From Oscillospiraceae bacterium (GTDB lineage: Bacteria; Bacillota; Clostridia; Oscillospirales; Oscillospiraceae), in NCBI GenBank assembly GCA_017937195.1, contig JAGBEA010000014.1:1-40388 (forward strand): a stretch of 40,388 nucleotides of DNA, given 5' to 3'. The notes beneath the pieces were generated by a model. That model was not told the origin of the DNA, made no database searches, and worked only from the letters and a program-made list of their open reading frames with translations. Of the stretch, positions 12,386 through 32,937 are shown one piece after another; within the stretch, counting starts at the first letter, position 1, and each line of letters begins with the position of its first letter. The position numbers and the translations under genes are program-made.

Positions 12386-12414
12386 TTGACAAATGTTTAC
12401 GGTTTTGATATATA
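12386..12414 (+). promoter_or_regulatory. promoter of fhs
   Basis: A consensus TTGACA (12386-12391), a 17-base spacer and TATATA (12409-12414) preceded by an extended TGA. Transcription would begin a few bases before the riboswitch aptamer. Confidence 0.8.
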
Positions 12415-12422
12415 TAATGATA

Positions 12423-12541
12423 GCTGTATTACTGACGGAAGTGGAGTGACCACATGGAGTACAGCCGCGGAATGCCGCTATTGCCGACCGTCTGGGCGTA
12501 CTACAGAAGTGGTGCGTCCTTTTTTATTTTTTTGAGGACGC
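12423..12541 (+). promoter_or_regulatory. ZTP riboswitch (pfl motif) controlling fhs
   Basis: The aptamer pieces are all visible. P1 is GCTGTA (12423-12428) with TACAGC (12460-12465). P2 is GTGG (12441-12444) with CCAC (12450-12453). P3 is GCC (12483-12485) with GGC (12495-12497), around the conserved CCGTCTGGGC. GACGG (12434-12438) can form the pseudoknot with CCGTC (12488-12492). Directly after, GGGCGTACTAC (12494-12504) pairs with GTGGTGCGTCC (12509-12519) over an AGAA loop and is followed by a T-rich run (12520-12533): an intrinsic terminator. Its left arm shares GGGC with P3, so ligand-bound aptamer and terminator exclude each other. GCGTCC can also pair with GGACGC (12536-12541) as an antiterminator. 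ZTP rises when 10-formyl-THF is short, so binding should switch fhs on. Confidence 0.92.
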
Positions 12542-12561: not shown

Positions 12562-14235
12562 ATGGAATTCAAAACCGACATCGAAATCGCACAGTCCACC
12601 CCTATGCGCCCCATTACCGAGATCGCCCAAACTGCCGGTGTAGACGCGCAGTATCTGGAGCTCTACGGCAACTACAAGGCAAAGGTGGATTACCGCCTGC
12701 TGAAAGAAAACACCAATCCCGACGGCAAGCTGATTCTGGTCACCGCCATCAACCCCACCCCTGCCGGTGAGGGAAAGACCACCACTACTGTGGGTCTGGC
12801 CGATGGCCTGAAGAAGCTGGGTAAGAACGTTGTGGTCGCCCTGCGCGAGCCCTCTCTTGGCCCCGTGTTCGGTGTTAAGGGCGGCGCTGCCGGCGGCGGC
12901 TACGCGCAGGTCGTCCCTATGGAGGACATCAACCTCCACTTTACCGGTGACTTCCACGCCATCGGCGCTGCCAACAACCTGCTGGCTGCTATGCTGGACA
13001 ACCATATTCAGCAGGGCAACGCACTGGGCATTGATGTCAAGCGCATCGTCTGGAAGCGCTGCGTGGATATGAATGACCGCCAGCTGCGCAATGTTATCGA
13101 CGGTCTGGGCGGCCGCATGCAGGGTGTGCCCCGTGAGGACGGCTTCGACATCACCGTGGCTTCCGAGATCATGGCTGTTCTGTGCCTGGCATCCGATATC
13201 ACCGACCTGAAGGCTCGTCTGGCCCGTATCGTGGTGGCCTACAGCTATGACGGCAAGGCGGTTACCGCTGCCGACCTGAAGGCGCAGGGCGCTATGGCTG
13301 CGCTGCTTAAGGACGCGCTGAAACCCAATCTGGTTCAGACCTTGGAAGGAACTCCCGCCTTTATTCACGGCGGTCCTTTCGCCAATATTGCACACGGCTG
13401 CAACAGCGTGATGGCCACCAAGATCGCTATGAAGCTGGGCGACTATGCTGTTACCGAGGCTGGCTTCGGTGCGGATTTGGGCGCAGAGAAGTTCCTGGAT
13501 ATCAAGTGCCGTCTGGCAGGCCTGACTCCCGCCGCAGTGGTAGTGGTCGCTACCGTCCGTGCTTTGAAGAATCATGGCGGTGTGCCCAAGGCTGAGCTGA
13601 ACAACGAAAATCTGGAGGCGCTGGAACGTGGCTTGCCCAACCTGCTGCAGCACGTTTCCAATATCACCAATGTCTATAAGCTGCCCTGCGTTGTGGCCAT
13701 TAATGCGTTCCCCACCGATACGGCTGCCGAGCTGAAGCTGGTGGAGGACAAGTGCCGCGAACTGGGTGTCAATGTTGCGTTGTCCGAGGTGTGGGCCAAG
13801 GGCGGCGAGGGCGGTGTGGCTCTCGCGCAGGAAGTCATGCGTCTGTGCGAGCAGCCCAACGATTTCACGTTTGCTTACGATGTGAATGATTCCATTGAGA
13901 AGAAGCTGAACGATATTGCCCAGAAAATCTATCATGCTGATGGCGTAGTGCTCACCGCCAATGCACGCAAGCAGATGGCAGAGCTGGAGGCTTTGGGCTT
14001 CGACAAGCTGCCGATCTGTATGGCCAAGACTCAGTATTCCTTCTCCGATGATCAGACGAAGTTGGGTGCGCCCTCCGGATTCACCGTTACTGTCCGCAAC
14101 ATCAAGGTTTCTGCCGGTGCCGGATTCCTTGTGGCATTGACCGGCGATATTATGACTATGCCCGGTCTGCCCAAGGTCCCTGCTGCAGAAAAGATCGATG
14201 TGGACGAGAATGGAAAGATTACCGGTCTTTTCTAA
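12562..14235 (+). CDS. fhs: formate-tetrahydrofolate ligase
   Basis: This 557-residue cytoplasmic enzyme joins formate to tetrahydrofolate with ATP to give 10-formyl-THF, the one-carbon donor for PurN and AICAR transformylase. The P-loop-like [11 protein letters not shown] (K72) and the family motif [19 protein letters not shown] are intact, and the length matches the usual 556-559. ATG 12562 follows GGAGG (12549-12553) by eight bases. A longer frame from 12454 would run through the riboswitch and is not used. The gene is monocistronic, under a strong promoter and a ZTP riboswitch, and a terminator follows. Its place just before the purine operon fits supply of 10-formyl-THF from formate. Confidence 0.97.
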
Positions 14236-14263
14236 AAAGAAGCAGGTATTCTCGTGAATTACG

Positions 14264-14303
14264 CAAAAGGGTTTGCTTCCAACGCGGGCAAACCCTTTTG
14301 TTA
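14264..14303 (+). terminator. terminator after fhs
   Basis: A 13-bp perfect stem (CAAAAGGGTTTGC 14264-14276 with 14288-14300) has an 11-base loop. The stem itself ends in TTTTG and is followed by TT, so the T stretch is short but the arm structure is strong. Confidence 0.75.
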
Positions 14304-14383
14304 TTCATATGCCAGGCTGCTGTGGGAAAATCGGAAGCGTGAAAAAAATTCGAAATTTTGCGTTTTGGAAGTTGCTTGCTGTG

Positions 14384-14412
14384 TTGTATGTTTTTTCCTG
14401 GTGTGATAAAAT
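14384..14412 (+). promoter_or_regulatory. promoter of the purine operon
   Basis: TTGTAT (14384-14389), a 17-base spacer and TAAAAT (14407-14412) with an extended TGn. The leader to purE is about 110 bases. I see no purine or ZTP aptamer in it, and no clear PurR box pair upstream. Confidence 0.65.
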
Positions 14413-14529
14413 ACTGTGGCAGTATTTTTGCGAGTCTGTTTCTTGGCACTATGGATTAATGTGATCAGGAAGAGCCTCTTTGAAACCGTATTATATGCGA
14501 AAAAGATTATAGCGATGAGGAGTACGGAA

Positions 14530-15027
14530 ATGAAAAAAGTAGCAATCATTATGGGGTCAGACAGTGACTGGCCCGTTGTCAAAGGTGCGTGCCAGCAGCT
14601 CACTTCTTTTGGCATTCCCTATGAGGCGCACATTCTCAGTGCGCACCGAACCCCTGCTGCTGCGGCGGAATTTGCCAAAAATGCCCGTAAAAACGGCTTT
14701 GGTGTTCTGATTTGTGCTGCCGGTATGGCAGCGCATCTGGCGGGCGCTTTTGCGGGGAACTCCACCCTCCCCGTGATAGGCATCCCTATGAAGGGCGGCG
14801 CTATGGACGGGCTGGACGCGCTTCTTGCTACCGTGCAGATGCCCAGCGGCATTCCGGTAGCTACGGTGGCGATCAACGGAGCAAAGAATGCTGCCGTATT
14901 GGCTGCACAGATTCTGGCGGTCGGCGACGATGAGCTGGCTGCCAAGCTGGATGCTGCCCGTGCCGAAATGGCGCAGCAGATTGCGGATAAAGAAGCCAAG
15001 CTCCAAAGCGAATTGGCTGCACTTTGA
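14530..15027 (+). CDS. purE: N5-carboxyaminoimidazole ribonucleotide mutase
   Basis: A 165-residue protein, first gene of the purine operon. It converts N5-CAIR to CAIR. The GSDSDW loop, SAHRTP and the later GIPMKGGAMDGLDALL match class I PurE, so a PurK partner (N5-CAIR synthetase) would be expected; none is in the window. The start at ATG 14530 has GAGGAG seven bases upstream. An in-frame ATG at 14515 overlaps that site and is less likely. 59 bases separate it from purC. Confidence 0.95.
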   Translation: MKKVAIIMGSDSDWPVVKGACQQLTSFGIPYEAHILSAHRTPAAAAEFAKNARKNGFGVLICAAGMAAHLAGAFAGNSTLPVIGIPMKGGAMDGLDALLATVQMPSGIPVATVAINGAKNAAVLAAQILAVGDDELAAKLDAARAEMAQQIADKEAKLQSELAAL

Positions 15028-15086
15028 TTTCATTTCCAAGATTTTATTTATAAATTTATATATTTTTGTTTTAGGAGGAATCCCAT

Positions 15087-15767
15087 ATGAAACTCGTTTA
15101 CACCGGTAAAACCAAGAATGTTTATGCGCTGGACAATGGCAACTATCTGCTGAAGTTTAAGGACGACTGCACCGGCAAGGACGGCGTGTTTGATCCCGGC
15201 GAGAACGCGGTCGGTCTGACCATCGAGGGTGTGGGTGATGTCAACCTTCGTATGTCCATCTATTTCTTTGAGAAGATCAATGCTGCCGGTATTAAGACAC
15301 ACTATGTCAGTGCAGATCTGAGCGAGACGACTATGGAGGTCCTTCCCGCCAAGGTCTTTGGCAAGGGTCTGGAGGTCATCTGCCGCTATAAGGCTGTCGG
15401 CTCCTTCTACCGCCGTTATTCCGATTACTGCGAGCAGGGTCAGGATCTGCCCGCTTATGTGGAGACTACGTTCAAGAATGATGCTTTGGGCGATCCTCTG
15501 GTTACCAAGGACGGTCTGGTGGACTTGGGCGTGATGACCGCCGAACAGTATGATGATCTGAAGGCTATGACGCAGGCGATTACCAAGATCGTGGCCGATG
15601 ACCTGAAGGCAAAGGGTCTAGATCTGTACGATATCAAGTTTGAGTTTGGCTATGATGCCGAGGGCAATGTGATTCTGATCGACGAAATCGCTTCCGGCAA
15701 TATGCGCGTTTACAAGGACGGCGAATATATCGATCCTATGACGCTCAACGAGCTGTTTTTTGCATAA
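15087..15767 (+). CDS. purC: SAICAR synthetase
   Basis: A 226-residue enzyme joining CAIR and aspartate with ATP to give SAICAR. The N-terminal [11 protein letters not shown] is the usual PurC KxK nucleotide-loop start, DDALGDPLV is the conserved middle motif, and [14 protein letters not shown] matches the C-terminal signature. Parts between these are more diverged than in textbook bacterial PurC, for example [10 protein letters not shown] where most have GSLAKR. ATG 15087 has AGGAGG eight bases upstream. It is co-transcribed with purE and purF. Confidence 0.93.
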
Positions 15768-15798
15768 TCACAAATAATCTGATTGGGAGTTACGAACC

Positions 15799-17223
15799 AT
15801 GGGTGGCTTTTTTGGTACCATTTCCAAGAGAGAGTGTGTGCTTGATATCTTCTTCGGTGTTGATTACCACTCTCACCTAGGCACAAAGCGCGGAGGAATG
15901 GTTGTCTACGATGCAGACAGCGGCAAATTCCAACGCCAGATTCACAATATCGAAAACACGCCTTTCCGAACGAAATTCGAAAAGGATCTCCATGATTTCC
16001 ACGGCTGCAGCGGTATCGGCTGTATCAGCGATACAGATCCTCAGCCGCTGCTGGTGCGGTCTCATCTGGGATTGTATGCCATTTCCACTGTCGGCATCAT
16101 TAACAATGCTGAAGAATTGGTAGACACCTATTTCTCCGACCATGGACATCAGTTTATGGCCATGAGTTCCGGCAACGTCAATTCTTCTGAGCTTACGGCA
16201 GCCCTTATCAATCAAAAGGACTCTCTTGTTGAGGGCATTCTCCATGCGCAGGAAGTTATCCAGGGGTCTATGACCATACTTCTTCTGACAAAGGATGGCA
16301 TCATCGCCGCCCGTGACAAAATGGGGAGACTTCCGGTTCTGCTGGGCAAAAACGAAGAGGGCTATTGTGTGTCCTTTGAATCCTTTGCCTATACCAAGCT
16401 GGGGTATGTGGATACCTATGAACTGGGCCCCCATGAGATTGTCCGTATTACGGCTGACGGCTTTGAAACGCTGTCTCCTGCAAGTCAGGAGATGAAGATC
16501 TGCGGCTTCCTTTGGACCTATTATGGGTACCCCAATTCCAACTATGAGGGGAAAAACGTGGAGGTCATGCGGTACCGAAATGGTGAGATCATGGCCCGCG
16601 ATGAGATCGCTCGCGACAGCTTGCCCGAAGTTGATATGGTAGCCGGCGTGCCGGATTCCGGTATCCCTCATGCGATTGGCTATGCCAACCGCAGCGGCAA
16701 GCCCTTTGCGCGTCCTTTTATCAAATACACCCCCACATGGCCTCGTTCTTTTACTCCCAGTGACCAAAAGGTGCGAAATCAGGTAGCGAAGATGAAGCAG
16801 ATCCCGGTCCCTGAGTTGATTGAGGGGAAAAAGCTGCTGTTTGTGGACGATTCCATCGTCCGTGGAACACAGCTGCGGGAGACGGTTAACTTCCTGTATG
16901 AAAGCGGCGCCAAGGAAGTGCATATGAGGTCTGCTTGTCCTCCCATTATGTATGCCTGCAAGTATCTGAATTTCTCGCGCGGCAACTCCGATATGGAATT
17001 GCTGGCGCGCCGTACGATTCAGGAGCTGGAAGGCGATGAGGGACAGCTCCATATTGAGGAATACGCTGATGCATCTTCCGAGCGCGGACAGTGCCTGCTG
17101 AAGCGCATCTGTGAAGAGTTCGGATTTGATTCTCTGGGCTATCAGTCTCTGGATGGCGTGCTGGAAGCGATCGGCATTGACAAAGACAAGATCTGCACCT
17201 ACTGCTGGAACGGCAAGGGGTAA
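15799..17223 (+). CDS. purF: PurF-like amidophosphoribosyltransferase lacking the catalytic N-terminal cysteine
   Basis: A 474-residue protein in the position of purF, which makes phosphoribosylamine from PRPP. The phosphoribosyltransferase half is intact (GVPDSGIPHAIGYA and the PRPP loop LLFVDDSIVRGTQ), and cysteines matching the 4Fe-4S ligands of the Bacillus enzyme are present (KICGF, YACKY and the CTYC end). The N-terminal glutaminase half is degenerate. It begins MGGFFGT, with no Cys at position 1-2. RGGMVVY replaces RGQEGAG, the NG oxyanion pair is missing, and SSGNVNSSEL replaces SSDTE. No upstream start would add a Cys. The best reading is an ammonia-using variant, or one with a separate glutaminase. 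Similar MGGFFG proteins occur, from memory, in Bacteroidetes and Clostridia. GGGAG precedes ATG 15799. Confidence 0.85.
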   Translation: MGGFFGTISKRECVLDIFFGVDYHSHLGTKRGGMVVYDADSGKFQRQIHNIENTPFRTKFEKDLHDFHGCSGIGCISDTDPQPLLVRSHLGLYAISTVGIINNAEELVDTYFSDHGHQFMAMSSGNVNSSELTAALINQKDSLVEGILHAQEVIQGSMTILLLTKDGIIAARDKMGRLPVLLGKNEEGYCVSFESFAYTKLGYVDTYELGPHEIVRITADGFETLSPASQEMKICGFLWTYYGYPNSNYEGKNVEVMRYRNGEIMARDEIARDSLPEVDMVAGVPDSGIPHAIGYANRSGKPFARPFIKYTPTWPRSFTPSDQKVRNQVAKMKQIPVPELIEGKKLLFVDDSIVRGTQLRETVNFLYESGAKEVHMRSACPPIMYACKYLNFSRGNSDMELLARRTIQELEGDEGQLHIEEYADASSERGQCLLKRICEEFGFDSLGYQSLDGVLEAIGIDKDKICTYCWNGKG

Positions 17224-17298
17224 GAGGATCAAGCCCGTCAACCGGTGTGTTCATCACCCTACGCACGATAAAGAAATAAATGCAAGGAGATATATATT

Positions 17299-18342
17299 AT
17301 GGATCATTCCAATTCCCACTCCGCTTCTTACGCTGCTGCCGGTGTCAATATCGAGGCAGGGTATGAAGGCGTTCGCCTGATGAAAAAGCATGTTGCCCGC
17401 ACGATGATTCCCGGTGTTGTTTCCGACATCGGCGGCTTCGGCGGTCTGTTTACGCCCGATATCGCCGGTATGACCGAGCCTACTCTGGTTATGGGTACCG
17501 ATGGTGTCGGCACGAAGCAGCGTATCGCCCAGTTGATGGACAAGCACGACACCGTGGGTATCGACTGTGTGGCTATGTGCGTCAATGATATCGTTTGCTG
17601 CGGCGCTAAGCCCATCGCATTTCTGGACTATATCGCCATCGGCAAGAACGAGCCTGAGAAGGTCGCCACTCTGGTTTCCGGTGTGGCAGAGGGCTGCGTT
17701 CAGGGCGGTTGTGCGCTGATCGGCGGTGAGACCGCTGAGCATCCCGGCACTATGGCTGCCGATGATTACGATCTGGCCGGTTTTGCTGTCGGTATTGTGG
17801 ACAAGTCCAAGATCATCGACCAGAACAGTATGAAGGAAGGCGACGTTGTTTTGGCGCTGCCCTCCTCCGGCATTCATTCCAATGGTTACTCGCTGGTTCG
17901 CAAGGTGTTTGATGTGGAGAACACTGATCTGAACAAGTATTACGAGGAACTGGGTCAGACTTTGGGCGAGGCTTTGCTGACGCCGACGGTCATCTATGTG
18001 AAGCCTGCTCTGGCTGCTATCGCTGCAGCTGAGGTGCATGGTATCAGCCACATTACCGGCGGCGGTTTTTATGAGAACCTTCCCCGCTGCATTCCTGCAG
18101 GTCTGTCTGCAAAGATTGAAAAGGCCGCTATCAAGATCCCTGCCATTTTCTCTTTGCTGCAGCGCGAAGGCAATATCCCCGAGCGTGATATGTACAATAC
18201 TTATAATATGGGCGTTGGTATGGCAATGATCGTCAGCCGGGAGTCTGCGGATGCGGCTATTGCTGCGCTGACAGCTGAGGGCTGCAATGCCTATGTGATC
18301 GGCGAAATCGTCTGCGGGGAAGACCCTGTCGTGCTATGGTAA
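17299..18342 (+). CDS. purM: phosphoribosylformylglycinamidine cyclo-ligase (AIR synthetase)
   Basis: A 347-residue enzyme closing the imidazole ring of FGAM with ATP. The start [51 protein letters not shown] and the [13 protein letters not shown] segment are the standard PurM motifs in order. The length is usual. AAGGAG precedes ATG 17299. The end overlaps the FNT gene by seven bases, so those two genes are translationally coupled. Confidence 0.97.
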
Positions 18343-18947
18343 GGCGCGCGCTGAGCCTGTCCTTTGCTGCGGGCATTTTTATCAGCATTGGCGGAGCGGT
18401 ATTCCTCTCCTGCGAGAACAGTGTAATCGGGGCGGTGCTTTTCAGTGTGGCACTTCTGTCGATCTGCTGTCTCCAGCTTTTCCTTTTCACCGGAAAGGTA
18501 GGATTCCTTGCTTTGAGCCATACAACAAAAGACATTGGAGAAGTGCTGCTGACCCTTGTTGGCAATCTTCTCGGTACATTCGCAGGCGGTATAATGGTCT
18601 CCGCTGCCAAACCCAAGCTGATGGAAGCGGCACAGATCCGTTGTATCCCCCGTTTGGAGATGGGTGTGCCCGCCATCCTTATCACTGCGTTTTTCTGCGG
18701 TATTCTTATGTATACCGCCGTTGCGATCTATAAGGAGAAAGGATCTCCTGCCGGTATCTTTTTCTGTGTGCCGGTTTTTATCCTCAGCGGGTTTGAACAC
18801 TCCATCGCAGATATGTTCTACTTCTTCTGTGCGCGTATGTTCAGCGCGGAAGTGTTTTTGTTCCTTGCAATCGTTATTGTGGGCAACAGCGTGGGCGGTA
18901 TGTTTATTCCTGCCCTTCGAAAGCTGGCAGAGGAGAAGAAGGTATGA
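18336..18947 (+). CDS. formate/nitrite transporter (FNT) family channel
   Basis: A 203-residue integral membrane protein with six hydrophobic segments (about 5-25, 28-52, 65-90, 108-130, 138-158, 167-190). FNT hallmarks are [11 protein letters not shown] in the first helix, [12 protein letters not shown] near the loop after the second, and [13 protein letters not shown] with the central His, then [14 protein letters not shown]. It is shorter than FocA (about 285), mainly from short termini. It overlaps purM by seven bases and purN by four (ATGA), so it is an integral part of the purine operon. FNT proteins pass formate, nitrite, hydrosulfide or small acids. Next to PurN, and near Fhs, formate is the natural guess: import as substrate for 10-formyl-THF. 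That role is inference. Confidence 0.8.
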
Positions 18948-19567
18948 CGAAAACAAGAATTGCCGTGCTGGTTTCCGGCGGCGGCACCAACCTGCAGGCA
19001 TTGATCGATGCCGAGCGTTCCGGAAAGATTCCCTCCGGCGAGATCGTGCTGGTTATTTCCAGCCAGTACGGTGTCCGCGCCATTGAGCGGGCTGCAGCGG
19101 CGAACATCCCCTGCGTGGTATGCAACAAAAAGGAGCTTGGCGGAGAGCAGAAAGCTTTTGAGGAGGCCATCTGCAAAGCCCTTGACCGGGCAGGTGTGGA
19201 GATGATCGTCCTCGCCGGCTTTATGAGCATTCTCAGCGAAGCGTTTACCCGCCGTTACAGTAACCGCATCATCAATGTCCATCCCTCGTTGATCCCCTCT
19301 TTCTGCGGTAAAGGGATGTACGGTCTCAAGGTTCACGAAGCGGCGCTCGACTATGGAGTAAAGGTGACCGGAGCGACCGTACATCTGGTCAACGAAATTC
19401 CCGATGGCGGCAAGATCCTGCTTCAAAAGGCGGTAGACATTCTGCCGGGCGACACGGCGGAGCTGCTCCAGCGCCGCGTGATGGAGCAGGCGGAGTGGAA
19501 GCTCCTGCCGCAGGCTGCCGAAATGCTGGCTGCAGCTATGATGAACGAAAAGGAGAACATACAATGA
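18944..19567 (+). CDS. purN: phosphoribosylglycinamide formyltransferase (10-formyl-THF dependent)
   Basis: A 207-residue enzyme that moves a formyl group from 10-formyl-THF to GAR. It has the N-terminal VLVSGGGTNLQALIDA, the catalytic N111-V-H113-PSLIP segment, and D154 in PDGGKIL where the family has its catalytic aspartate. It overlaps the FNT gene upstream and purO downstream by ATGA in both cases. With no formate-using PurT in view, it is the consumer of Fhs product at this step. Confidence 0.95.
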   Translation: MTKTRIAVLVSGGGTNLQALIDAERSGKIPSGEIVLVISSQYGVRAIERAAAANIPCVVCNKKELGGEQKAFEEAICKALDRAGVEMIVLAGFMSILSEAFTRRYSNRIINVHPSLIPSFCGKGMYGLKVHEAALDYGVKVTGATVHLVNEIPDGGKILLQKAVDILPGDTAELLQRRVMEQAEWKLLPQAAEMLAAAMMNEKENIQ

Positions 19568-20286
19568 ACATTTATGAAATTGGCTCTATGGCTCAAAAGC
19601 TGAGCACCAATACATATCCGGGACGCGGCATCGTTCTGGGCATCACTCCTGATGGCAAAAAAGCTGTTGCTGCCTATTTCATCATGGGCCGCAGCGTCAA
19701 CAGCCGCAACCGTGTTTTTGTCGCGGAAGCAGACGGTATCCGCACCGAGGCTCATGATCCCAGCTTGATGGTGGATCCTCATCTCATCATCTACCATCCT
19801 GTTCGTGAAGTCGGTCAGGGTCTCATTGTTACCAACGGCGATCAGACCGACACCGTTTGGGAATATCTTGCAAAGGGCGAGAGCTGGGAATCCGCGCTGC
19901 GCACCCGTCAGTTTGAGGATGACTGCCCCAACTGGACACCTCGCATCTCCGGACTGCAGGCAAACGACGGCAGCTATAAGATGTCTATTCTGAAAGCAGC
20001 TGATGCCGAAGGCAGCGCGTGTGCCCGCCATTTCTTTGAATATCCCGCACTGGCCGGACTGGGTCACTTCCTGCACACCTATGTGTGTGATGGAAATCCC
20101 GTCATTCCCACCTTCCAGGGTGAGCCTGAGCGCATCGCCACGTGCAATGACATTGATGCATTCACCGCCGAGCTGTGGGAGAACCTGAACCCCGACAACA
20201 AGATTTCTTTGTTTGTGCGCTATACGGATCTGGAGACTTGTGCGTATGAGCAGCGTATTTTGAACAAGCATTTGGAGGATAAGTGA
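19564..20286 (+). CDS. purO: IMP cyclohydrolase, PurO type
   Basis: A 240-residue enzyme closing FAICAR to IMP. It matches the stand-alone IMP cyclohydrolase family first described in archaea (STNTYPGRGIVLG, then FIMGRSVNSRNRVF, then HDPSLMVDPHLIIYHP). It is not the PurH N-terminal domain. AAAGGAG precedes ATG 19564, and its start overlaps the purN stop. The next gene supplies the transformylase half, so the two together replace the usual bifunctional PurH. Confidence 0.88.
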   Translation: MNIYEIGSMAQKLSTNTYPGRGIVLGITPDGKKAVAAYFIMGRSVNSRNRVFVAEADGIRTEAHDPSLMVDPHLIIYHPVREVGQGLIVTNGDQTDTVWEYLAKGESWESALRTRQFEDDCPNWTPRISGLQANDGSYKMSILKAADAEGSACARHFFEYPALAGLGHFLHTYVCDGNPVIPTFQGEPERIATCNDIDAFTAELWENLNPDNKISLFVRYTDLETCAYEQRILNKHLEDK

Positions 20287-20288
20287 GT

Positions 20289-21467
20289 ATGAAGAATCTG
20301 GAACTGAAGTATGGCTGCAACCCCAATCAGAAGCCTTCCTGCATTTTTGTGCGTGATGGCCGCGAACTGCCCATCACCGTGCTCAGCGGTAAGCCCGGCT
20401 ACATCAATTTCATGGATGCCTTCAACTCCTGGCAATTGGTTAAGGAATTGAAAGCTGCCACCGGTCTGCCCGCCGCTGCATCTTTCAAGCATGTTTCTCC
20501 CGCCGGTGCCGCTGTGGGTCTGCCCCTGAGCGAGACCGACAAGAAGATCTACTTTGTGGAAGAGGGCGCCGAGCTTTCTCCCATTGCCTGCGCTTATATC
20601 CGCGCCCGTGGTGCAGACCGTCTGTGCTCCTACGGCGACTGGGCCGCTCTGTCCGAGGTCTGCGATGCTGCTACCGCCGCCTATCTGAAGGCTGAGGTTT
20701 CCGACGGTGTTATTGCGCCCGGTTATACCGAGGAGGCGCTGGAGATCCTGAAAACCAAGAAAAAGGGCAACTACAATGTGGTTCAGATCGATCCCGATTT
20801 CGTTCCCGCCGAGGAAGAGTTCAAGGATGTTTTCGGCATCACCTTCCAGCAGGGCCGCAACAACTTTAAGATCGATGAGGAGCTGCTGGGCAACATTGTG
20901 ACCGAGAACAAGAACCTGCCTCAGCAGGCGAAGATCGATATGATCGTGGCGCTCATTACCCTGAAGTACACCCAGTCCAACTCTGTGTGCTACGTTAAGG
21001 ACGGTCAGGCTATCGGCGTAGGCGCCGGTCAGCAGAGCCGCATCCACTGCACCAGACTGGCAGGCCAGAAGGCCGACAACTGGTATCTGCGCCAGCATCC
21101 CAAGGTATTGGGTCTGCAGTTCGTGGACGGTATCCGCCGTCCCGACCGTGACAATGCGATTGATATCTACACCTCCGACGAGTACGAGGATGTGCTGGCT
21201 GAGGGCGTGTGGCAGACCATCTTCAAGGTCAAGCCCGAGGTGCTGACCATCGAGGAAAAGAAGGAATGGATCGCCACCCAGTCCGGCGTCACCGTGGGCA
21301 GCGATGCCTTCTTCCCCTTCGGTGATAATGTGGAACGCGCCCGCAAGAGCGGCGTACAGTACATTGCCGAGCCCGGCGGCTCCATCCGCGACGACCATGT
21401 CATTATGACCGCTGACAAGTACAATATGACCATGTGCTTTACCGGCATGCGTCTCTTCCATCATTGA
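20289..21467 (+). CDS. purV: AICAR transformylase (stand-alone PurH C-terminal type, PurV)
   Basis: A 392-residue enzyme formylating AICAR with 10-formyl-THF. KHVSPAGAAVG corresponds to the KHxNPCG motif, QSNSVCYVKDGQAIGVGAGQQSR to the conserved cofactor and dimer region, and SDAFFPFGD and EPGGSIRDD to the end. There is no IMP cyclohydrolase domain. ATG 20289 lies two bases after the purO stop, with GGAGG at 20274-20278; a GTG at 20283 is the alternative start. When this step starves for 10-formyl-THF, ZMP/ZTP accumulates, which is the signal read by the fhs riboswitch. Confidence 0.9.
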   Translation: MKNLELKYGCNPNQKPSCIFVRDGRELPITVLSGKPGYINFMDAFNSWQLVKELKAATGLPAAASFKHVSPAGAAVGLPLSETDKKIYFVEEGAELSPIACAYIRARGADRLCSYGDWAALSEVCDAATAAYLKAEVSDGVIAPGYTEEALEILKTKKKGNYNVVQIDPDFVPAEEEFKDVFGITFQQGRNNFKIDEELLGNIVTENKNLPQQAKIDMIVALITLKYTQSNSVCYVKDGQAIGVGAGQQSRIHCTRLAGQKADNWYLRQHPKVLGLQFVDGIRRPDRDNAIDIYTSDEYEDVLAEGVWQTIFKVKPEVLTIEEKKEWIATQSGVTVGSDAFFPFGDNVERARKSGVQYIAEPGGSIRDDHVIMTADKYNMTMCFTGMRLFHH

Positions 21468-21480
21468 TAGGAGGACTACT

Positions 21481-22761
21481 ATGAAATTACTGGTTGTCGG
21501 CAGTGGTGGCCGTGAACACACCATTATTAAAAAGCTGAAGGAGAATCCGGCGGTAGAGACTATCTACGCACTGCCCGGCAACGGCGGTATTGCGGCAGAC
21601 GCCGTGTGTGTGCCTGAGATCGGTGCCAAGGATATCCCTGCCATCGTGGAATTTGCACAGGCACACGCTGTTGACTTTGCTGTGGTGGCTCCGGACGATC
21701 CTCTGGCGCTGGGGTGCGTGGATCGGCTGCACGAGGTGGGCATTCCTTGCTTTGGTCCCGATGCCAAAGCTGCCCGCATCGAAGCCAGCAAAGTGTTCTC
21801 CAAGAACCTGATGAAGAAATATGGCATTCCCACCGCCGCTTACGAAGTGTTCAATGACCCTGCCAAAGCTATGGCATATCTGGAGACTGCCGACTTCCCC
21901 ATCGTCATCAAGGCCGACGGTCTGGCTCTGGGCAAAGGTGTATTGATCCCCCAGAATCTGGAGGAGGGCAAGGCTGCCGTCAAGAGCATTATGGAAGACA
22001 AGGCCTTTGGCGATTCCGGAAACGAGATCGTCATTGAAGAGTTTCTTACGGGACCTGAGGTCAGCGTGCTGGCCTTTACTGACGGTACCGCTATCCGCCC
22101 CATGGTGTCCTCGATGGATCACAAGCGGGCAGGCGATGGGGATACCGGCCTGAACACCGGCGGTATGGGTACCGTGGCGCCCAATCCCTACTACACTGCC
22201 GAAATTGCGCAGGAGTGTATGGATACAATTTTCCTGCCCACTTTGGCTGCTATGCGTGCTGAAGGCTGCCCCTTTAAGGGCTGCTTGTATTTCGGACTGA
22301 TGCTTACCCCCAAGGGCCCCAAGGTGATTGAGTACAACTGCCGCTTCGGCGATCCCGAGACTCAGGTGGTGCTGCCCCTGCTGAAAACTGATCTGCTGAC
22401 GGTGATGCAGGCTGTGGAAAACGAAACGCTTGCTGATCTGGAAGTGGAATGGTCTGACGGCGCTGCTGCCTGCGTTATTCTGGCTTCCGGCGGCTATCCC
22501 GGTTCCTACGAGAAAGGTAAGATCATGACCTTCCCTGAGAGCACTGCCGCCAATGTGACCATCATCCATGCCGGCAGCAAGATCTCCGGCGACAATCTGG
22601 TCACCAACGGTGGCCGCGTGCTGGGCATCACTGCCACAGCACCTACTCTGAAGGAAGCTTTGGCAGATGCCTACGCTGCTGCTGCGACCGTTGATTTCGA
22701 GGGCAAATATATGCGAAGCGACATCGGTCAAAGAGCCCTGCGTGCAATGGAGGAAGTGTAA
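21481..22761 (+). CDS. purD: phosphoribosylamine-glycine ligase
   Basis: A 426-residue ATP-grasp enzyme making GAR. It begins MKLLVVGSGGREHTI and has FPIVIKADGLALGKGV (ATP-grasp lysine loop), DHKRAGDGDTGLNTGGMG and EYNCRFGDPE (metal-binding end). Length and order are standard. AGGAGG precedes ATG 21481, 13 bases after the AICAR transformylase. The purL start follows the purD stop with no gap. Confidence 0.97.
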   Translation: MKLLVVGSGGREHTIIKKLKENPAVETIYALPGNGGIAADAVCVPEIGAKDIPAIVEFAQAHAVDFAVVAPDDPLALGCVDRLHEVGIPCFGPDAKAARIEASKVFSKNLMKKYGIPTAAYEVFNDPAKAMAYLETADFPIVIKADGLALGKGVLIPQNLEEGKAAVKSIMEDKAFGDSGNEIVIEEFLTGPEVSVLAFTDGTAIRPMVSSMDHKRAGDGDTGLNTGGMGTVAPNPYYTAEIAQECMDTIFLPTLAAMRAEGCPFKGCLYFGLMLTPKGPKVIEYNCRFGDPETQVVLPLLKTDLLTVMQAVENETLADLEVEWSDGAAACVILASGGYPGSYEKGKIMTFPESTAANVTIIHAGSKISGDNLVTNGGRVLGITATAPTLKEALADAYAAAATVDFEGKYMRSDIGQRALRAMEEV

Positions 22762-25700
22762 ATGGTTAGACGTATATTTGTTGAAAAGAAAGAGCCCCTG
22801 CGCCATGAGGCAAAGGGATTGCTCAATGAGCTGCAGAGCCTGCTGGGCATTACTTCGCTTACCGGCCTTCGTCTGGTGAATCGCTACGATGTAGAGGGAC
22901 TGAAGAAGGATGTCTTCGAGCGTGCTGTGCAGACCGTGTTCTCTGAACCTCAGGTGGACAACGCGACCGAAAATCTTCCGGAGGGTGACTTCACTGTGTT
23001 CGCCGTGGAAGCGCTTCCCGGTCAATTTGACCAGCGCGCTGACTCTGCCAGCCAGTGTATCCAGTTGATGACCCAGGGGGATCGTCCCATTGTCCGTACC
23101 GCCAAGGTGTATCTGCTCTCCGGCGAACTTTCCAAAGCCGATTTGAAGAAAATCAAGGACTATGTCATCAACCCCGTGGAGTCCCGCGAAGCCCGCTTGG
23201 GCAAGCCCAAGACACTGCAGGTGGAATATACCATTCCCACTGCCGTGGAAACAGTAACCGGCTTTATCAATATGGACGAGGCCGCTCTGGCTGCGCTGCT
23301 GGACGAGCTGGGTCTTGCTATGGATATTGATGATTTGAAGTTCCTGCAGGCCTATTTCCGTGACGATGAGCAGCGTGATCCTACCATTACCGAGATCCGT
23401 GTGGTGGACACTTACTGGTCCGATCACTGCCGTCACACCACATTCTCTACTCACATCGACAATGTTTCCATCGACGATCCGGAGATCCGGGCCGCCTATG
23501 AGCGCTATCTGGCCGCCCGCGTGGAGGTCTACGGCGAGGAGAAGGCTGCCAAGCGGCCTCAGACTTTGATGGACATTGCCACCATCGGCGCCAAGACGCT
23601 GAAAAAGCGGGGACTCCTGCCCGAGTTGGATGAGAGTGAGGAGATCAATGCCTGCTCGATCCACACCTCCGCCACCGTAAACGGCGAGGAGCAGGACTGG
23701 CTGCTGATGTTCAAGAACGAGACCCATAACCATCCCACTGAGATCGAGCCCTTTGGCGGCGCAGCAACCTGCATCGGCGGCTGTATTCGTGATCCTCTGT
23801 CCGGTCGTGCTTACGTCCATCAGGCTATGCGCCTTACCGGCGGCGGCGATCCCCGTGTGGCTCTGGATAAAACGACTCCCGGCAAGCTTCCCCAGCGCAA
23901 GCTGGCTCAGACTGCTGCGGCCGGCTACTCCTCTTACGGCAACCAGATCGGTCTGGCTACCGGCCATGTGGCTGAAGTCTACCATGAGGGCTACATTGCC
24001 AAGCGCATGGAGTGCGGCGTGGTAGTGGGTGCCGCACCCGCTTATAATGTCCGCCGTGAGCGCCCCGCCCCCGGCGACATCGTCATCCTGCTGGGTGGAC
24101 GCACCGGCCGTGACGGTATCGGCGGTGCTACCGGCTCTTCCAAGAGCCACAATATGAAATCTCTGACCACTATGGCCTCTGAGGTTCAGAAGGGCAACGC
24201 CCCCGAGGAGCGCAAGATCCAGCGTCTGTTCCGCAACAGCGAGGTCACCCGCCTGATCAAACGCTGCAATGACTTCGGCGCCGGCGGAGTGTCCGTTGCT
24301 ATCGGTGAGCTGGCCGACGGTTTGAAAATCGATTTGGATGCCGTGCGCAAGAAGTACGACGGTCTGGACGGCACCGAACTGGCCATTTCCGAGTCTCAGG
24401 AGCGTATGGCGGTGGTCGTGGCGGCTGAGGATGCTGACAAGTTTATCGCCGCCGCTGAAGGAGAGAATCTGGAGGCTTACCGCGTGGCTGTCGTTACCGA
24501 GGAAGCCCGTATGGTCATGGAGTGGAACGGTGCCACCATTGCCGACCTTTCCCGTGACTTTTTGAATACCAACGGCGCTGTCAAGCACGCTGATGTTTCT
24601 GTTGCCGAAAAGGACCGCAGTGCATTTGGCAAGAAGCAGTATGGTGATTTGCGGGAGATGGCCTCCGGCTTGAAGGCTGCTTCCCGCCGCGGTCTGACCG
24701 AACGCTTCGACGGTTCCATCGGCTGCGGCTCCGTCCTGATGCCTTTCGGCGGCAAACGGCAGCGCACACCTGCTCAGGCGATGGCTGCGTTGTTCCCCGT
24801 AATGCCCGATCAGGAGACCGAGCAGGCCAGCGTTATGGCTTGGGGCTTTGATCCTGAGCAGTCCAGCATTGACCCCTATACCGGCTCCTATAATGCGGTA
24901 TACACCTCTATGGCAAAGCTGGTAGCTGCCGGCGCAGACTATAAACTGGCGTATTTGACCTTCCAGGAATTCTTTGAGAAGCTGAGAAATGAGCCCAACC
25001 GCTGGGGCAAGCCCTTCTCTGCATTGCTGGGCGGCCTGGACGCTCAGCTGGAGCTGGGTGCAGCTGCCATTGGCGGCAAAGACTCTATGTCCGGCTCCTT
25101 TATGGATCTGGACGTTCCTCCTACGCTGATTTCCTTTGCAATTGCACCCATTAAGGCCGGCGATGTCCTGTCTCCCGAGTTTAAGGAAGCAGGCCATCCC
25201 GTTTATCTGTTCTCCGGCTGCACTGCCGATGAGAAGAAGGCGGCATGGGAGGCGTTCCACGCGCTGCATATGGCCGGAAAGGTCAAGGCTGCATGGGCTG
25301 TGGAAAACGGCGTGGCGGAAGCTGTGATGAAGATGTCCTTCGGCAATGAAATCGGATTCTCTGCTGCTGGTACCGATGCGGCGTGGGATGAGCTGCTGCC
25401 CGGTGCCATCGTGGCTGAGTTGACGGAAGATACCGATGCTGCACTGCTGCTGGGCGTTACTACTGCTGACGGCTGCATCACCATTGGTGACGACAGTGCC
25501 TCTGTGGAGGAACTGCTTTCCCTCAACGAAAGTGTTCTGGAGGGTGTATATCCCAACCGCACGGCTGTGGATCCCGCTCCTGTTCCGGTTCTGGAAGCCC
25601 CCACGACCCAGCGTGTGGCGCCCAAGGTGGGCATCGTTCGCCCCAAGGTCGTTATCCCCGTGTTCCCCGGCACTAATTGCGAGTATGACAGTGCCCGCGC

Positions 25701-26439
25701 GGTAGAACGCGCCGGTTTGGAGCCGCAGATCATGGTCATCAACAACCAGTCCGCTCAGGGTGTTGCCGATTCCGTAGATCGTATCGCTGCCGCTATCCGC
25801 GAAAGCCAGATCATCTTTGTCCCCGGCGGCTTCTCCGGCGGTGACGAGCCCGACGGCTCCGGCAAGTTCATTACTGCATTCTTCCGCAACCCCGCAGTGA
25901 AGGATGCCACGATGGATCTGCTGAAGAACCGCGACGGTCTGATGCTGGGCATCTGCAATGGCTTCCAGGCCCTGATTAAGCTGGGTCTGGTGCCCTACGG
26001 CGAGATTATCGACACGGATGAGACCTGCCCCACTCTGACCTTCAATGTCATCGGCCGCCACCAGTCCAAGATCGTCCGCACCCGCATTGCATCCAACCGT
26101 TCTCCCTGGCTTGCCAAGCGGAGTGTGGGAGACATTGTGAATGTTCCCATCTCTCACGGTGAGGGCCGCTTCCTGTGCAGCCCTGAGCTGGTCGCAAAGC
26201 TGGCTGAGAGCGGACAGATTGCTACGCAGTATGTGGATCTGAACGGCACGCCTACTATGGATGTGGACTTCAACCCCAATGGCTCTGTCTGGGCTATTGA
26301 GGGAATTACCTCTCCCGATGGCCGTGTATTTGGCAAAATGGGCCATGCAGAGCGCATTGGACAGAGTCTGTACAAGAATATTCCCGGCGACTATGATTTG
26401 CATTTGTTTGAGGCCGCCAAAGAATATTTTGATATTTAA
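22762..26439 (+). CDS. purL: phosphoribosylformylglycinamidine synthase, single-chain
   Basis: A 1225-residue fused enzyme converting FGAR to FGAM with glutamine and ATP. SDHCRHTTF lies at 220-228, the ATP-site segment NETHNHPTEIEPFGGAAT near 319, GGVSVAIGELADG in the first half and AAIGGKDSMSGSF in the second. A C-terminal glutaminase domain starts near 965 (PVFPGTNCEYD), with catalytic C1065 in GICNGFQ and the His of SHGEGRF near 1133. The glutaminase is intact, in contrast to the PurF-like protein. This one-chain form is the type common in Clostridia, and no PurS or PurQ is needed. GGAGG lies eight bases before ATG 22762. It is the last gene of the operon. Confidence 0.97.
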   Translation: MVRRIFVEKKEPLRHEAKGLLNELQSLLGITSLTGLRLVNRYDVEGLKKDVFERAVQTVFSEPQVDNATENLPEGDFTVFAVEALPGQFDQRADSASQCIQLMTQGDRPIVRTAKVYLLSGELSKADLKKIKDYVINPVESREARLGKPKTLQVEYTIPTAVETVTGFINMDEAALAALLDELGLAMDIDDLKFLQAYFRDDEQRDPTITEIRVVDTYWSDHCRHTTFSTHIDNVSIDDPEIRAAYERYLAARVEVYGEEKAAKRPQTLMDIATIGAKTLKKRGLLPELDESEEINACSIHTSATVNGEEQDWLLMFKNETHNHPTEIEPFGGAATCIGGCIRDPLSGRAYVHQAMRLTGGGDPRVALDKTTPGKLPQRKLAQTAAAGYSSYGNQIGLATGHVAEVYHEGYIAKRMECGVVVGAAPAYNVRRERPAPGDIVILLGGRTGRDGIGGATGSSKSHNMKSLTTMASEVQKGNAPEERKIQRLFRNSEVTRLIKRCNDFGAGGVSVAIGELADGLKIDLDAVRKKYDGLDGTELAISESQERMAVVVAAEDADKFIAAAEGENLEAYRVAVVTEEARMVMEWNGATIADLSRDFLNTNGAVKHADVSVAEKDRSAFGKKQYGDLREMASGLKAASRRGLTERFDGSIGCGSVLMPFGGKRQRTPAQAMAALFPVMPDQETEQASVMAWGFDPEQSSIDPYTGSYNAVYTSMAKLVAAGADYKLAYLTFQEFFEKLRNEPNRWGKPFSALLGGLDAQLELGAAAIGGKDSMSGSFMDLDVPPTLISFAIAPIKAGDVLSPEFKEAGHPVYLFSGCTADEKKAAWEAFHALHMAGKVKAAWAVENGVAEAVMKMSFGNEIGFSAAGTDAAWDELLPGAIVAELTEDTDAALLLGVTTADGCITIGDDSASVEELLSLNESVLEGVYPNRTAVDPAPVPVLEAPTTQRVAPKVGIVRPKVVIPVFPGTNCEYDSARAVERAGLEPQIMVINNQSAQGVADSVDRIAAAIRESQIIFVPGGFSGGDEPDGSGKFITAFFRNPAVKDATMDLLKNRDGLMLGICNGFQALIKLGLVPYGEIIDTDETCPTLTFNVIGRHQSKIVRTRIASNRSPWLAKRSVGDIVNVPISHGEGRFLCSPELVAKLAESGQIATQYVDLNGTPTMDVDFNPNGSVWAIEGITSPDGRVFGKMGHAERIGQSLYKNIPGDYDLHLFEAAKEYFDI

Positions 26440-31200: not shown

Positions 31201-32111
31201 CCGACAGCCCCATCCGTTTCCCGGGTCTGTTCGGGGACTGGGCATTCACCGCCTCGTCCAAGGCGCTGGACATCGGCAACGGTATCTACTGGTACGGCAT
31301 CCTTATCGCGCTGGGCCTGCTGCTGGCGGTGGCATTCTGCCTGCGTCAGCGGAAGAAGTACGGCATCAGCGAGGACAATCTTATCGACGGCGTGCTGTGG
31401 GGCATCCCCTGCGGCGTGATCGGCGCACGGCTTTACTATGTGGTGTTCTATCTGGACAACTACCGCCGCGTGGACGGCAGCTTTGACTGGGGCGAGGCCA
31501 TCGCCATCTGGGACGGCGGATTGGCCATCTATGGCGCGGTGATCGCCGTGGTCATCGTGGCGCTGATCCTCAGCCGCGTGAAGAAATTCAGCCTCTGGGC
31601 CATGATGGATGTGGTGGTCATGGGTTTGATGATCGGTCAGGCGGTAGGCCGCTGGGGCAACTTTATGAACCGCGAAGCCTTCGGCGGCGAGACCACGCTG
31701 CCGTGGCGTATGGAGCTGACACTGCGCAGCGGCGAGATCGTGCAGGTGCATCCCACCTTTTTCTATGAGAGTCTGTGGAATGTGATCGGTCTGCTGCTGA
31801 TCGTATTCGTGGTGTCCAAGGCACGTCGCTTTGACGGCGAGAACACCTGCTTTTACTTCCTTTGGTACGGCATCGGTCGGTTCTGGATCGAGGGTCTGCG
31901 CACCGACAGTCTGTACCTTTTCGACTGGCAGCTGTTCGGTCAGCCCATCCGCGTCAGTCAGGCACTGTCGCTGGTGATGATCGTGGTGTCGCTGGCGCTG
32001 CTGGTGTATCATTTGAAGATTTGCCCCCACGATCCGGCTGAGCTGTATGTCAACCGCGTGGCGGCGCAGGAAAAGAAGGAGACAGAGGAAAATGAGCGCA
32101 CAGATCCTTGA
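31188..32111 (+). CDS. lgt: prolipoprotein diacylglyceryl transferase
   Basis: A 307-residue membrane enzyme transferring diacylglycerol from phosphatidylglycerol to the lipobox cysteine of prolipoproteins. The signature GRWGNFMNREAFGG starts at G154. Other family marks are IYWYGILIALG, GARLYYVVFYL, WDGGLAIYGAV and HPTFFYESLWN. About seven membrane segments are seen. AAGGAGG lies six bases before ATG 31188, inside the end of yfmH. The C-terminal tail is charged and overlaps folD by 20 bases. Confidence 0.95.
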   Translation: MYAMTDSPIRFPGLFGDWAFTASSKALDIGNGIYWYGILIALGLLLAVAFCLRQRKKYGISEDNLIDGVLWGIPCGVIGARLYYVVFYLDNYRRVDGSFDWGEAIAIWDGGLAIYGAVIAVVIVALILSRVKKFSLWAMMDVVVMGLMIGQAVGRWGNFMNREAFGGETTLPWRMELTLRSGEIVQVHPTFFYESLWNVIGLLLIVFVVSKARRFDGENTCFYFLWYGIGRFWIEGLRTDSLYLFDWQLFGQPIRVSQALSLVMIVVSLALLVYHLKICPHDPAELYVNRVAAQEKKETEENERTDP

Positions 32112-32937
32112 CGGAAAGGCCCTTGCGGCCAAAATGAAGGAAAATATCCGCCTCGAGGCGGCAGCGCTGCGGCGTCAGCCCGGTCTTGCGGTGATTCTGG
32201 TGGGCGATAACGGTGCCTCGCAGGTCTATGTCCGCAACAAGGTGAAGGATTGCAGCGATTGCGGCATCGCCTGCTTTGACTATTATCTGTCTGCCGATAC
32301 CACGCAGGAGCAGCTGCTGACGCTCATTGACGAGCTCAACGGCAGGGAGGACGTGGACGGCATTCTGGTGCAGCTGCCGCTGCCCGCCCATCTGGAGGAA
32401 CGCCCCGTGCTGGAGGCCATTAGCCCCATGAAGGATATGGACGCCTTCCACCCCGAGAATATGGGCCGCATCCTCCGCGGTGACGCCCGCTTCAAGCCCT
32501 GCACCCCCGCCGGTGTGATGGAGCTGCTGCACGAAGCGGGCATCGACCCCGCCGGCAAGCACTGCGTGGTGGTGGGTCGCAGCAACATCGTGGGCAAGCC
32601 GATGGCACTTCTGCTGCTGCAGGAAAACGGCACCGTCACCGTGTGCCACAGCCGCACCCCCGACCTGAAAGAGCAGTGCCTGCGCGCCGATATTCTGGTC
32701 TCGGCAGTGGGCAGGGAGAATCTCATCACCGCCGATATGGTGAAGGATGGCGCGGTGGTCATCGATGTGGCTATGAACCGCAATGCCGCCGGTAAGCTGT
32801 GCGGCGATGTGGACTATGCGGCGGTGGCGGAGAAGGCGTCGTATATCACCCCCGTCCCCGGCGGTGTGGGGCCTATGACCCGCGCTATGCTGATGGCCAA
32901 TACGCTGACCGCAGCCAAGCTGCGGGAGAACCGCTGA
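32092..32937 (+). CDS. folD: methylene-THF dehydrogenase / methenyl-THF cyclohydrolase
   Basis: A 281-residue bifunctional enzyme interconverting 5,10-methylene-THF and 10-formyl-THF. The catalytic Y46xxxK50 pair (VYVRNKVKDC), VQLPLPAHL, the nucleotide loop VVGRSNIVGKPMA and the end PVPGGVGPMTRAM are all present. AGAGGAAA precedes ATG 32092, and the start lies inside lgt. It belongs with Fhs in the one-carbon part of the window although it is transcribed with peptidase and lipoprotein genes. Confidence 0.95.
   Translation: MSAQILDGKALAAKMKENIRLEAAALRRQPGLAVILVGDNGASQVYVRNKVKDCSDCGIACFDYYLSADTTQEQLLTLIDELNGREDVDGILVQLPLPAHLEERPVLEAISPMKDMDAFHPENMGRILRGDARFKPCTPAGVMELLHEAGIDPAGKHCVVVGRSNIVGKPMALLLLQENGTVTVCHSRTPDLKEQCLRADILVSAVGRENLITADMVKDGAVVIDVAMNRNAAGKLCGDVDYAAVAEKASYITPVPGGVGPMTRAMLMANTLTAAKLRENR

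Follow-up and report, generated by a model that had tools for sequence, protein, structure and literature searches.

A gene of the FNT channel family lies between purM and purN in the purine cluster of an Oscillospiraceae bacterium, and its product is probably a short FocA-like formate channel that imports formate for formate–tetrahydrofolate ligase (Fhs), taking the role of pyruvate formate-lyase (PFL), the usual formate-producing enzyme, in the ZTP riboswitch regulon. The original prediction for this gene, a dedicated formate entry route for purine synthesis, draws support at the level of sequence from its gene context, from a ZMP/ZTP riboswitch, from a reciprocal distribution of PFL and from a pore core resembling that of FocA. 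The window, that is the whole stretch of 40,388 nucleotides analyzed, was considered together with related loci and with samples of 394 genomes from its order and 200 from its family.

The purine cluster and its leader

The genes of the cluster span positions 12565-26439 in the order ZMP/ZTP riboswitch-fhs-purE-purC-purF-purM-FNT-purN-purO-AICAR formyltransferase-purD-purL, and the identities of the genes neighbouring FNT are backed by Pfam/NCBIfam (Table 1). Intergenic gaps from fhs to purL do not exceed 75 bases, except for the 294 bases between fhs and purE. The last steps to IMP are encoded at 19564-21467 by a PurO-type cyclohydrolase and a stand-alone AICAR formyltransferase, which replace the bifunctional PurH. 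The PurF-like protein starts with MGGFFG where E. coli PurF has MCGIVG. This replacement of the N-terminal catalytic cysteine by glycine suggests that PurF of this type may use ammonia. Among the purine-linked loci L165-L220, the catalytic Cys is replaced in all 22 readable N-termini of 23, Gly (once Ser) following Met.

Table 1. Features of the purine cluster, its leader and folD in the window
Feature	Position	Strand	Evidence or remark
Possible sigma-A promoter (TTGACA, 17 nt, TATATA)	12386..12414	+	read by eye; uncertain; absent from consensus-scan output
ZMP/ZTP riboswitch aptamer (RF01750)	12418..12504	+	53.7 bits, gathering score 39
Terminator-like stem and T run	12494..12519	+	11-pair stem; consensus match only
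fhs, formate–tetrahydrofolate ligase	12565..14235	+	PF01268 919.3 bits; PRK13505 942.8 bits, cut-off 652
purE	14530..15027	+	PF00731 205.7 bits
purC	15087..15767	+	PF01259 139.7 bits
purF-like, without N-terminal catalytic cysteine	15799..17223	+	TIGR01134 186 bits, below cut-off 350
purM	17299..18342	+	PF00586 and PF02769
Short FNT-family channel gene (candidate formate importer)	18336..18947	+	PF01226 76.1 bits, pore residues, clade
purN, GAR transformylase	18944..19567	+	PF00551 171.6 bits
PurO-type IMP cyclohydrolase	19564..20286	+	PF07826 193.6 bits
Stand-alone AICAR formyltransferase	20283..21467	+	PRK07106 714.1 bits, cut-off 415
purD	21481..22761	+	PF01071 and others
purL (FGAM synthase)	22762..26439	+	TIGR01857 1716.9 bits, cut-off 1057
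folD, elsewhere in the window	32092..32922	+	PF02882 and PF00763; links formyl-THF and methylene-THF

The aptamer ahead of fhs is the sole Rfam match in the window at gathering scores. The terminator-like site overlaps its 3' end, an ON-switch layout, and the possible promoter ends 3 bases before the aptamer match, so that a transcript would start at the aptamer 5' edge. In the available parts of the literature, ZMP is described as an alarmone of folate stress and the ZTP switch as being of the ON type (PMC7337938), and the commonest published targets of the riboswitch are fhs, purH, glyA, folD and pfl (PMC2864571).

The riboswitch was also searched for in 22 genomes with a purM/purN-adjacent FNT gene (hereafter purine-FNT genomes: 16 from the order sample, five from the family sample, and G021, which belongs to neither and stays outside the PFL counts below). 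In 16 of them it was found 3.0-5.8 kb upstream of FNT, on the same strand and contig, which should be the expected start of the operon. It was not found in the other six (G035, G226, G137, G199, G123 and G373) under filters stricter than those of the sister-species search described below, since 46 genomes were searched together. Of the other 24 genomes in this search, nine have a ZTP riboswitch, but it accompanies the FNT cluster in just two of them: in G509 it precedes the FNT match by 95 bases, with glyA and fhs following, and in G494 it lies 3.3 kb upstream of an FNT gene beside fhs, fchA and folD. Rfam was also run on 60 loci in which neither purM nor purN neighbours FNT (two genes entered twice; flanks of 1.5 kb in most cases). 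Apart from tRNA and 5S RNA, it detected three THF riboswitches and a single ZTP riboswitch; ZTP control of stand-alone FNTs is thus not general. THF riboswitches (RF01831) lie just downstream of one-carbon-linked short FNT genes, on the same strand, at L051:1389-1483, L052:614-704 and L053:2148-2243.

An fhs gene is present in 21 of the 22 purine-FNT genomes; in 12 it shares contig and strand with FNT and is no more than 9 kb away from it. The exception is G137, listed as 100% complete, which gave no fhs match.

The purM-purN slot

As originally read, the channel gene overlaps purM by 7 bases (purM stop 18340-18342) and purN by 4 bases (purN ATG 18944). The overlap with purM measures exactly 7 bases in 37 of the 45 distinct loci in which both genes are readable, and 44 of the 45 show some overlap; the arrangement is therefore not due to chance. 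FNT and purN overlap in 40 of the 45 distinct purM-FNT loci. Start codons were picked by rule for all these counts, and purN was assigned the start nearest to the FNT stop, which biases the purN figure towards overlap. In sister species lacking FNT, purN directly follows purM in 17 out of 17 purM loci, its match starting between -7 and +90 bases from the purM stop (18 genomes, one purM being partial and one genome giving no purM match). FNT thus sits cleanly in the purM-purN slot. The order purM-FNT-purN is found in 20 of the 22 purine-FNT genomes; in G199 and G123, purN follows FNT and a PurF-like gene precedes it. Loci L028 and L029 carry a PurF-like gene (ca. 30% identical to purF of the window) 5' of FNT, with purN still 3', and purM was not found within the 1.5 kb examined upstream of FNT.

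The channel protein and its pore

The PF01226 score of the 203-residue product exceeds the family cut-off of 34.6 bits, and this is the single PF01226 match in the genome, which is 92% complete. A Kyte-Doolittle hydropathy profile, the only one used, gave nine peaks merging into six hydrophobic regions. The protein had been called unusually short, which holds in comparison with E. coli FocA (285 aa) and NirC (268 aa) but not within its own subfamily, where ca. 200-215 aa are usual and the median is 211 aa (240 rows); a truncated gene is therefore rejected. It scores far from the NCBIfam models for FocA (equivalog TIGR04060, 31.5 bits, below the cut-off of 290.1) and NirC (PRK11562, 21.4 bits, below the cut-off of 293). 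Some species of the window's genus (L018-L024) have a longer, distant FNT, with open frames of 254-273 aa and 29-33% identity, that falls outside the short subfamily.

Comparison with FocA, as the original prediction had proposed, revealed a conserved pore core. The residues kept, in FocA numbering, are F75, L79, L89, F90, T91, N121, F202, F207, E208, H209, A212 and N262. The central constriction of FocA (F75, F202, H209, A212) corresponds to F36, F148, H155 and A158 of the window protein, and the FNT hallmarks are found as H155 (the central His), L50 and T52 (the Leu-x-Thr of the omega-loop), N77 (TM3) and N184 (TM6). All 48 purine-linked rows (47 distinct) retain the central His, the Leu-x-Thr and both Asn. 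FocA K156 is replaced by R106, most relatives having K. According to excerpts of two reports on FocA, T91 and H209 are needed for formate-proton symport into cells (PMC12559229), and H209 is needed for formate uptake, the H209N variant only letting formate out (PMC8914244).

Outside this core the protein departs from FocA: S92-T93 is replaced by G-K (S92 being G53), N172 by G, N254 by F and N213 by D. S92, T93, N172 and N254 are the residues of the FocA subfamily in Table 4 of PMC5525234, as available. G at N172 and F at N254 also occur in the uncharacterised YfdC type of that survey, the marks of which, a non-Phe hydrophobic residue at F202 and E at S92, are absent from the window protein (F148 and G53). 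The T93 site holds T/S, N, V or H, or is not fixed, in the eight subfamilies of the same table. In the short FNTs it holds K/R throughout the 48 purine-linked rows (47 distinct) and the 22 readable one-carbon rows, and in 102 of 120 others. This basic omega-loop residue, unlike those of the published eight, suggests that the short FNTs form a separate subfamily, three of the published ones having been compared in a tree (E. coli FocA, NirC and YfdC) and the others by their Table 4 residues. The available text of that survey mentions the removal of 128 sequences for short helices or poor alignment, and the words purine and tetrahydrofolate are absent from its main text.

Relatives, contexts and phylogeny

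Searching with the window protein (E <= 1e-20) retrieved matches in 39 of the 200 family genomes and 96 of the 394 order genomes. In a contig scan for relatives, the best 80 of 288 loci came mostly from clostridial metagenome-assembled genomes, with titles often naming animal guts. Short FNTs also appear in records titled Treponema, Methanomethylophilaceae or 'archaeon', Thermoguttaceae, Planctomycetia, Alistipes and Bacteroidales (L197, L199, L214, L223, L228, L229, L231, L233, L237 and L242), owing either to transfer among gut microbes or to binning errors.

A FastTree tree was built from 188 distinct FNT rows (the window included, identical sequences removed) and the three E. coli FNTs (FocA, NirC and YfdC). 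Many of its branches are weak and some are long, so that the inner branching order is not trusted. The neighbourhood survey proposed with the original prediction found the purM/purN arrangement repeatedly: 47 of the 188 distinct rows, the window included, adjoin purM/purN, so it is not confined to one genome. A further 21 have a one-carbon gene (fhs, fchA, folD, folC, 5-formyl-THF cyclo-ligase or glyA) on their own strand no more than 6 kb away, and 120 have neither kind of neighbour. All 47 purine-linked rows fall in one clade of 66 rows with a local support of 99, the other 19 being five one-carbon-linked rows and 14 others. Their genomes carry six different family codes, and mapping the purine label onto the tree requires 11 changes or more. 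Among cluster representatives of the neighbours, Fhs, FolC with 5-formyl-THF cyclo-ligase, FolD, GlyA and formate dehydrogenase alpha were recognized by Pfam or NCBIfam; the FchA-like neighbour matches the FTCD_C family and scores under the NCBIfam FchA cut-off.

In the order sample, the 96 short-FNT loci divide into 16 purine, nine one-carbon (in one of these folC lies 5.3 kb off on the opposite strand, in another fhs is on the opposite strand), one near purC and 70 others. For these 70, a stretch of 6 kb around FNT contains neither a purine nor a one-carbon gene, in some cases owing to nearby contig ends, and one-carbon linkage is discarded as a general rule for short FNTs. Homologues lying mostly outside purine operons, with nitrite or sulfide genes, had been named as evidence against a role in purine synthesis. 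The first part of this holds, 80 of the 96 loci lying outside purine operons, but nitrite genes were not found: the stretches examined gave a weak NirB-like hit at just two of the 96 loci, both outside the purine clade. Operon partners of the 'other' group (69 likely partners scanned with Pfam) belong to scattered families, with no nitrite or sulfite reductase among the 25 of 68 matches listed.

Distribution of PFL

PFL was counted as present at TIGR01255 E < 1e-100, i.e., in 198 of the 394 order genomes, 188 above the curated cut-off and 10 under it. Genomes outside the listed matches were counted as lacking PFL, listed rows plus the stated remainder giving 394 for the order and 200 for the family, and the FNT and PFL searches were taken to cover the same genomes since their totals agree (order 394, 315, 168; family 200, 129, 106). 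PFL was thus recorded in none of the 16 purine-FNT genomes of the order sample vs 182 of the 298 genomes without a short-FNT match (E <= 1e-20; Fisher 5e-7), and in 16 of the 96 with a short FNT of any context (9e-15 against the same 298), relatedness being ignored in both tests. Nor was it found in the five purine-FNT genomes that the family sample adds, and the genome of the window itself has no PF02901 (PFL) match. Within the window's family PFL is rare, being over the cut-off in 30 of 200 genomes, and the contrast is weak, with PFL in three of 39 short-FNT genomes (one a partial gene) vs 28 of 161, and not significant (Fisher p = 0.15, the latter entered as 29/161).

The alternation is seen within genera. 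Sixteen genera of the order sample hold both species with FNT and no PFL and species with PFL and no FNT, and six of these have purine-linked FNTs (g20, g24, g171, g218, g228 and g239; sign test 0.016). A purine-linked FNT and PFL occur together in no genome of the order sample. A short FNT of another context coexists with PFL in sixteen genomes of eleven genera, and 116 order-sample genomes have neither PFL nor a short FNT.

Eighteen PFL-bearing, FNT-lacking sister species were picked by hand, 15 belonging to the six purine-FNT genera and three to two genera whose short FNTs lie in another context. Each of the 18 gave a ZTP riboswitch match. Among the 15 species for which the position of PFL is given, it precedes pfl by 58-83 bases in 13, one of which (G428) scores below the gathering score; in eight of the 18 species a ZTP riboswitch stands 2-3 kb ahead of purM in the same orientation. 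The riboswitch is therefore not specific to FNT, and a ZTP-controlled purine operon may predate the insertion of FNT, counts of this kind being unable to tell gain from loss. From these positions, the best reading is a swap between pfl and FNT inside one ZTP regulon. All 35 genomes tested have FolD, which rules out the idea that FolD is missing and formate the sole source; serine could feed 10-formyl-THF without formate and is a possible second one-carbon source via FolD.

Proposed mechanism and alternatives

We infer formate as the substrate, an inward direction, co-transcription of the cluster, its switching and a dependence on formate from neighbours. ZMP/ZTP (the AICAR nucleotide) would rise when AICAR formyltransferase lacks enough 10-formyl-THF, and its build-up would let transcription pass the terminator at the riboswitch, so that fhs, the purine enzymes and the channel would be made together. 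External formate would then enter through FNT as formate plus a proton, and Fhs would trap it with ATP as 10-formyl-THF for PurN and the AICAR formyltransferase of the same cluster; this picture of formate-proton symport and of capture by Fhs is modelled on FocA work and textbook chemistry. Imported formate may also supply methylene-THF via FolD. The channel would stand in for PFL, which related species encode behind a riboswitch of this class, formate being taken up instead of made. The originally proposed link to fermentative formate of the gut community is plausible, because no PFL was found in the genome itself.

Flow in the opposite direction, FNT letting formate out as a relief valve for Fhs run backwards (10-formyl-THF + ADP -> formate + ATP) or for deformylation, is unlikely. 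FocA works both ways, according to the available text of PMC8914244, and with FolD present serine could become formate. However, the gene sits in a biosynthetic operon that consumes 10-formyl-THF, under a riboswitch class tied to folate stress (PMC2864571 and PMC7337938, in part), it occurs in purine operons where PFL, a main formate source, was not found, and the His needed for uptake by FocA is invariant in the purine-linked rows.

It is similarly improbable that a different small anion passes through the channel, for instance bicarbonate to serve the carboxylation by PurE, or nitrite or hydrosulfide. The PDB sequences matched by the window protein include those of LCIA, an algal FNT with a link to bicarbonate, and of the HSC channel 3tdo. 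Moreover, FocA L167 (TM4), T in the window, is R in 40 of 48 purine-linked rows, as the site is K/R in the NirC and HSC types (PMC5525234, Table 4 as available). Against this, relatives adjoin fhs, fchA, folD and glyA, NirB-like hits are confined to the two loci mentioned above, and bicarbonate would not explain the swap with PFL. Very improbable indeed is an unrelated passenger in a strong housekeeping operon, as the many short FNTs outside purine operons and the repeated changes of the purine label could suggest, given the single clade, the same purM-purN slot in genomes of six family codes, the exact 7-base overlap and the relatives beside other one-carbon genes.

Formate import for Fhs thus being preferred, a broader proposal is put forward tentatively, with slightly less than even confidence: that the short FNTs, as a distinct subfamily of ca. 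205 aa with a basic omega-loop, are the formate importers of the ZTP regulon, that they repeatedly replaced PFL and turned formate makers into takers leaning on their neighbours' formate, and that the charge of the omega-loop contributes to a preference for uptake. If true, an FNT subfamily wired into purine/folate one-carbon metabolism would point to many uncultured gut clostridia as probable takers of formate, and cross-feeding would be readable from the genome, riboswitch-pfl denoting a maker and riboswitch-pur-FNT a taker. The short FNTs would also provide material to study what sets direction and selectivity.

Comparison with known systems

In the available text of PMC5525234, the partners ascribed to FNT channels are PFL, formate dehydrogenase, nitrite reductase or sulfite reductase. 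Among the papers listed from the open-licence literature, no title or abstract opening describes an FNT in a purine operon; an earlier mention is possible. Like the NirC and HSC channels (solved as 4fc4 and 3tdo/3tdp), the window protein is expected from its profile matches to have the FNT fold; it keeps F202 and A212, and many of its relatives share R at L167. Unlike them, it has a basic residue, not H or N, at FocA T93 (PMC5525234, in part), and nitrite reductase neighbours were essentially not found at the 96 order-sample loci. With the ZTP (pfl) riboswitch regulon the cluster shares fhs, one of its commonest published targets, and differs in having a channel gene where PFL was not found, no formate transporter being named in the available part of PMC2864571.

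A close parallel is E. coli FocA, the pore core of which is kept, the proposed substrate of which is the same and which is likewise co-encoded with an enzyme of formate metabolism (focA-pflB). The window protein is shorter (203 vs 285 aa), without the N-terminal extension and without Y-L-R near the C-terminus (motif from the available text of PMC5572259). Its partners are fhs and purine genes, not pflB. In yogurt, Streptococcus thermophilus supplies formate to Lactobacillus bulgaricus for purines, and the proposed use of external formate as a one-carbon source for purines would resemble that pair.
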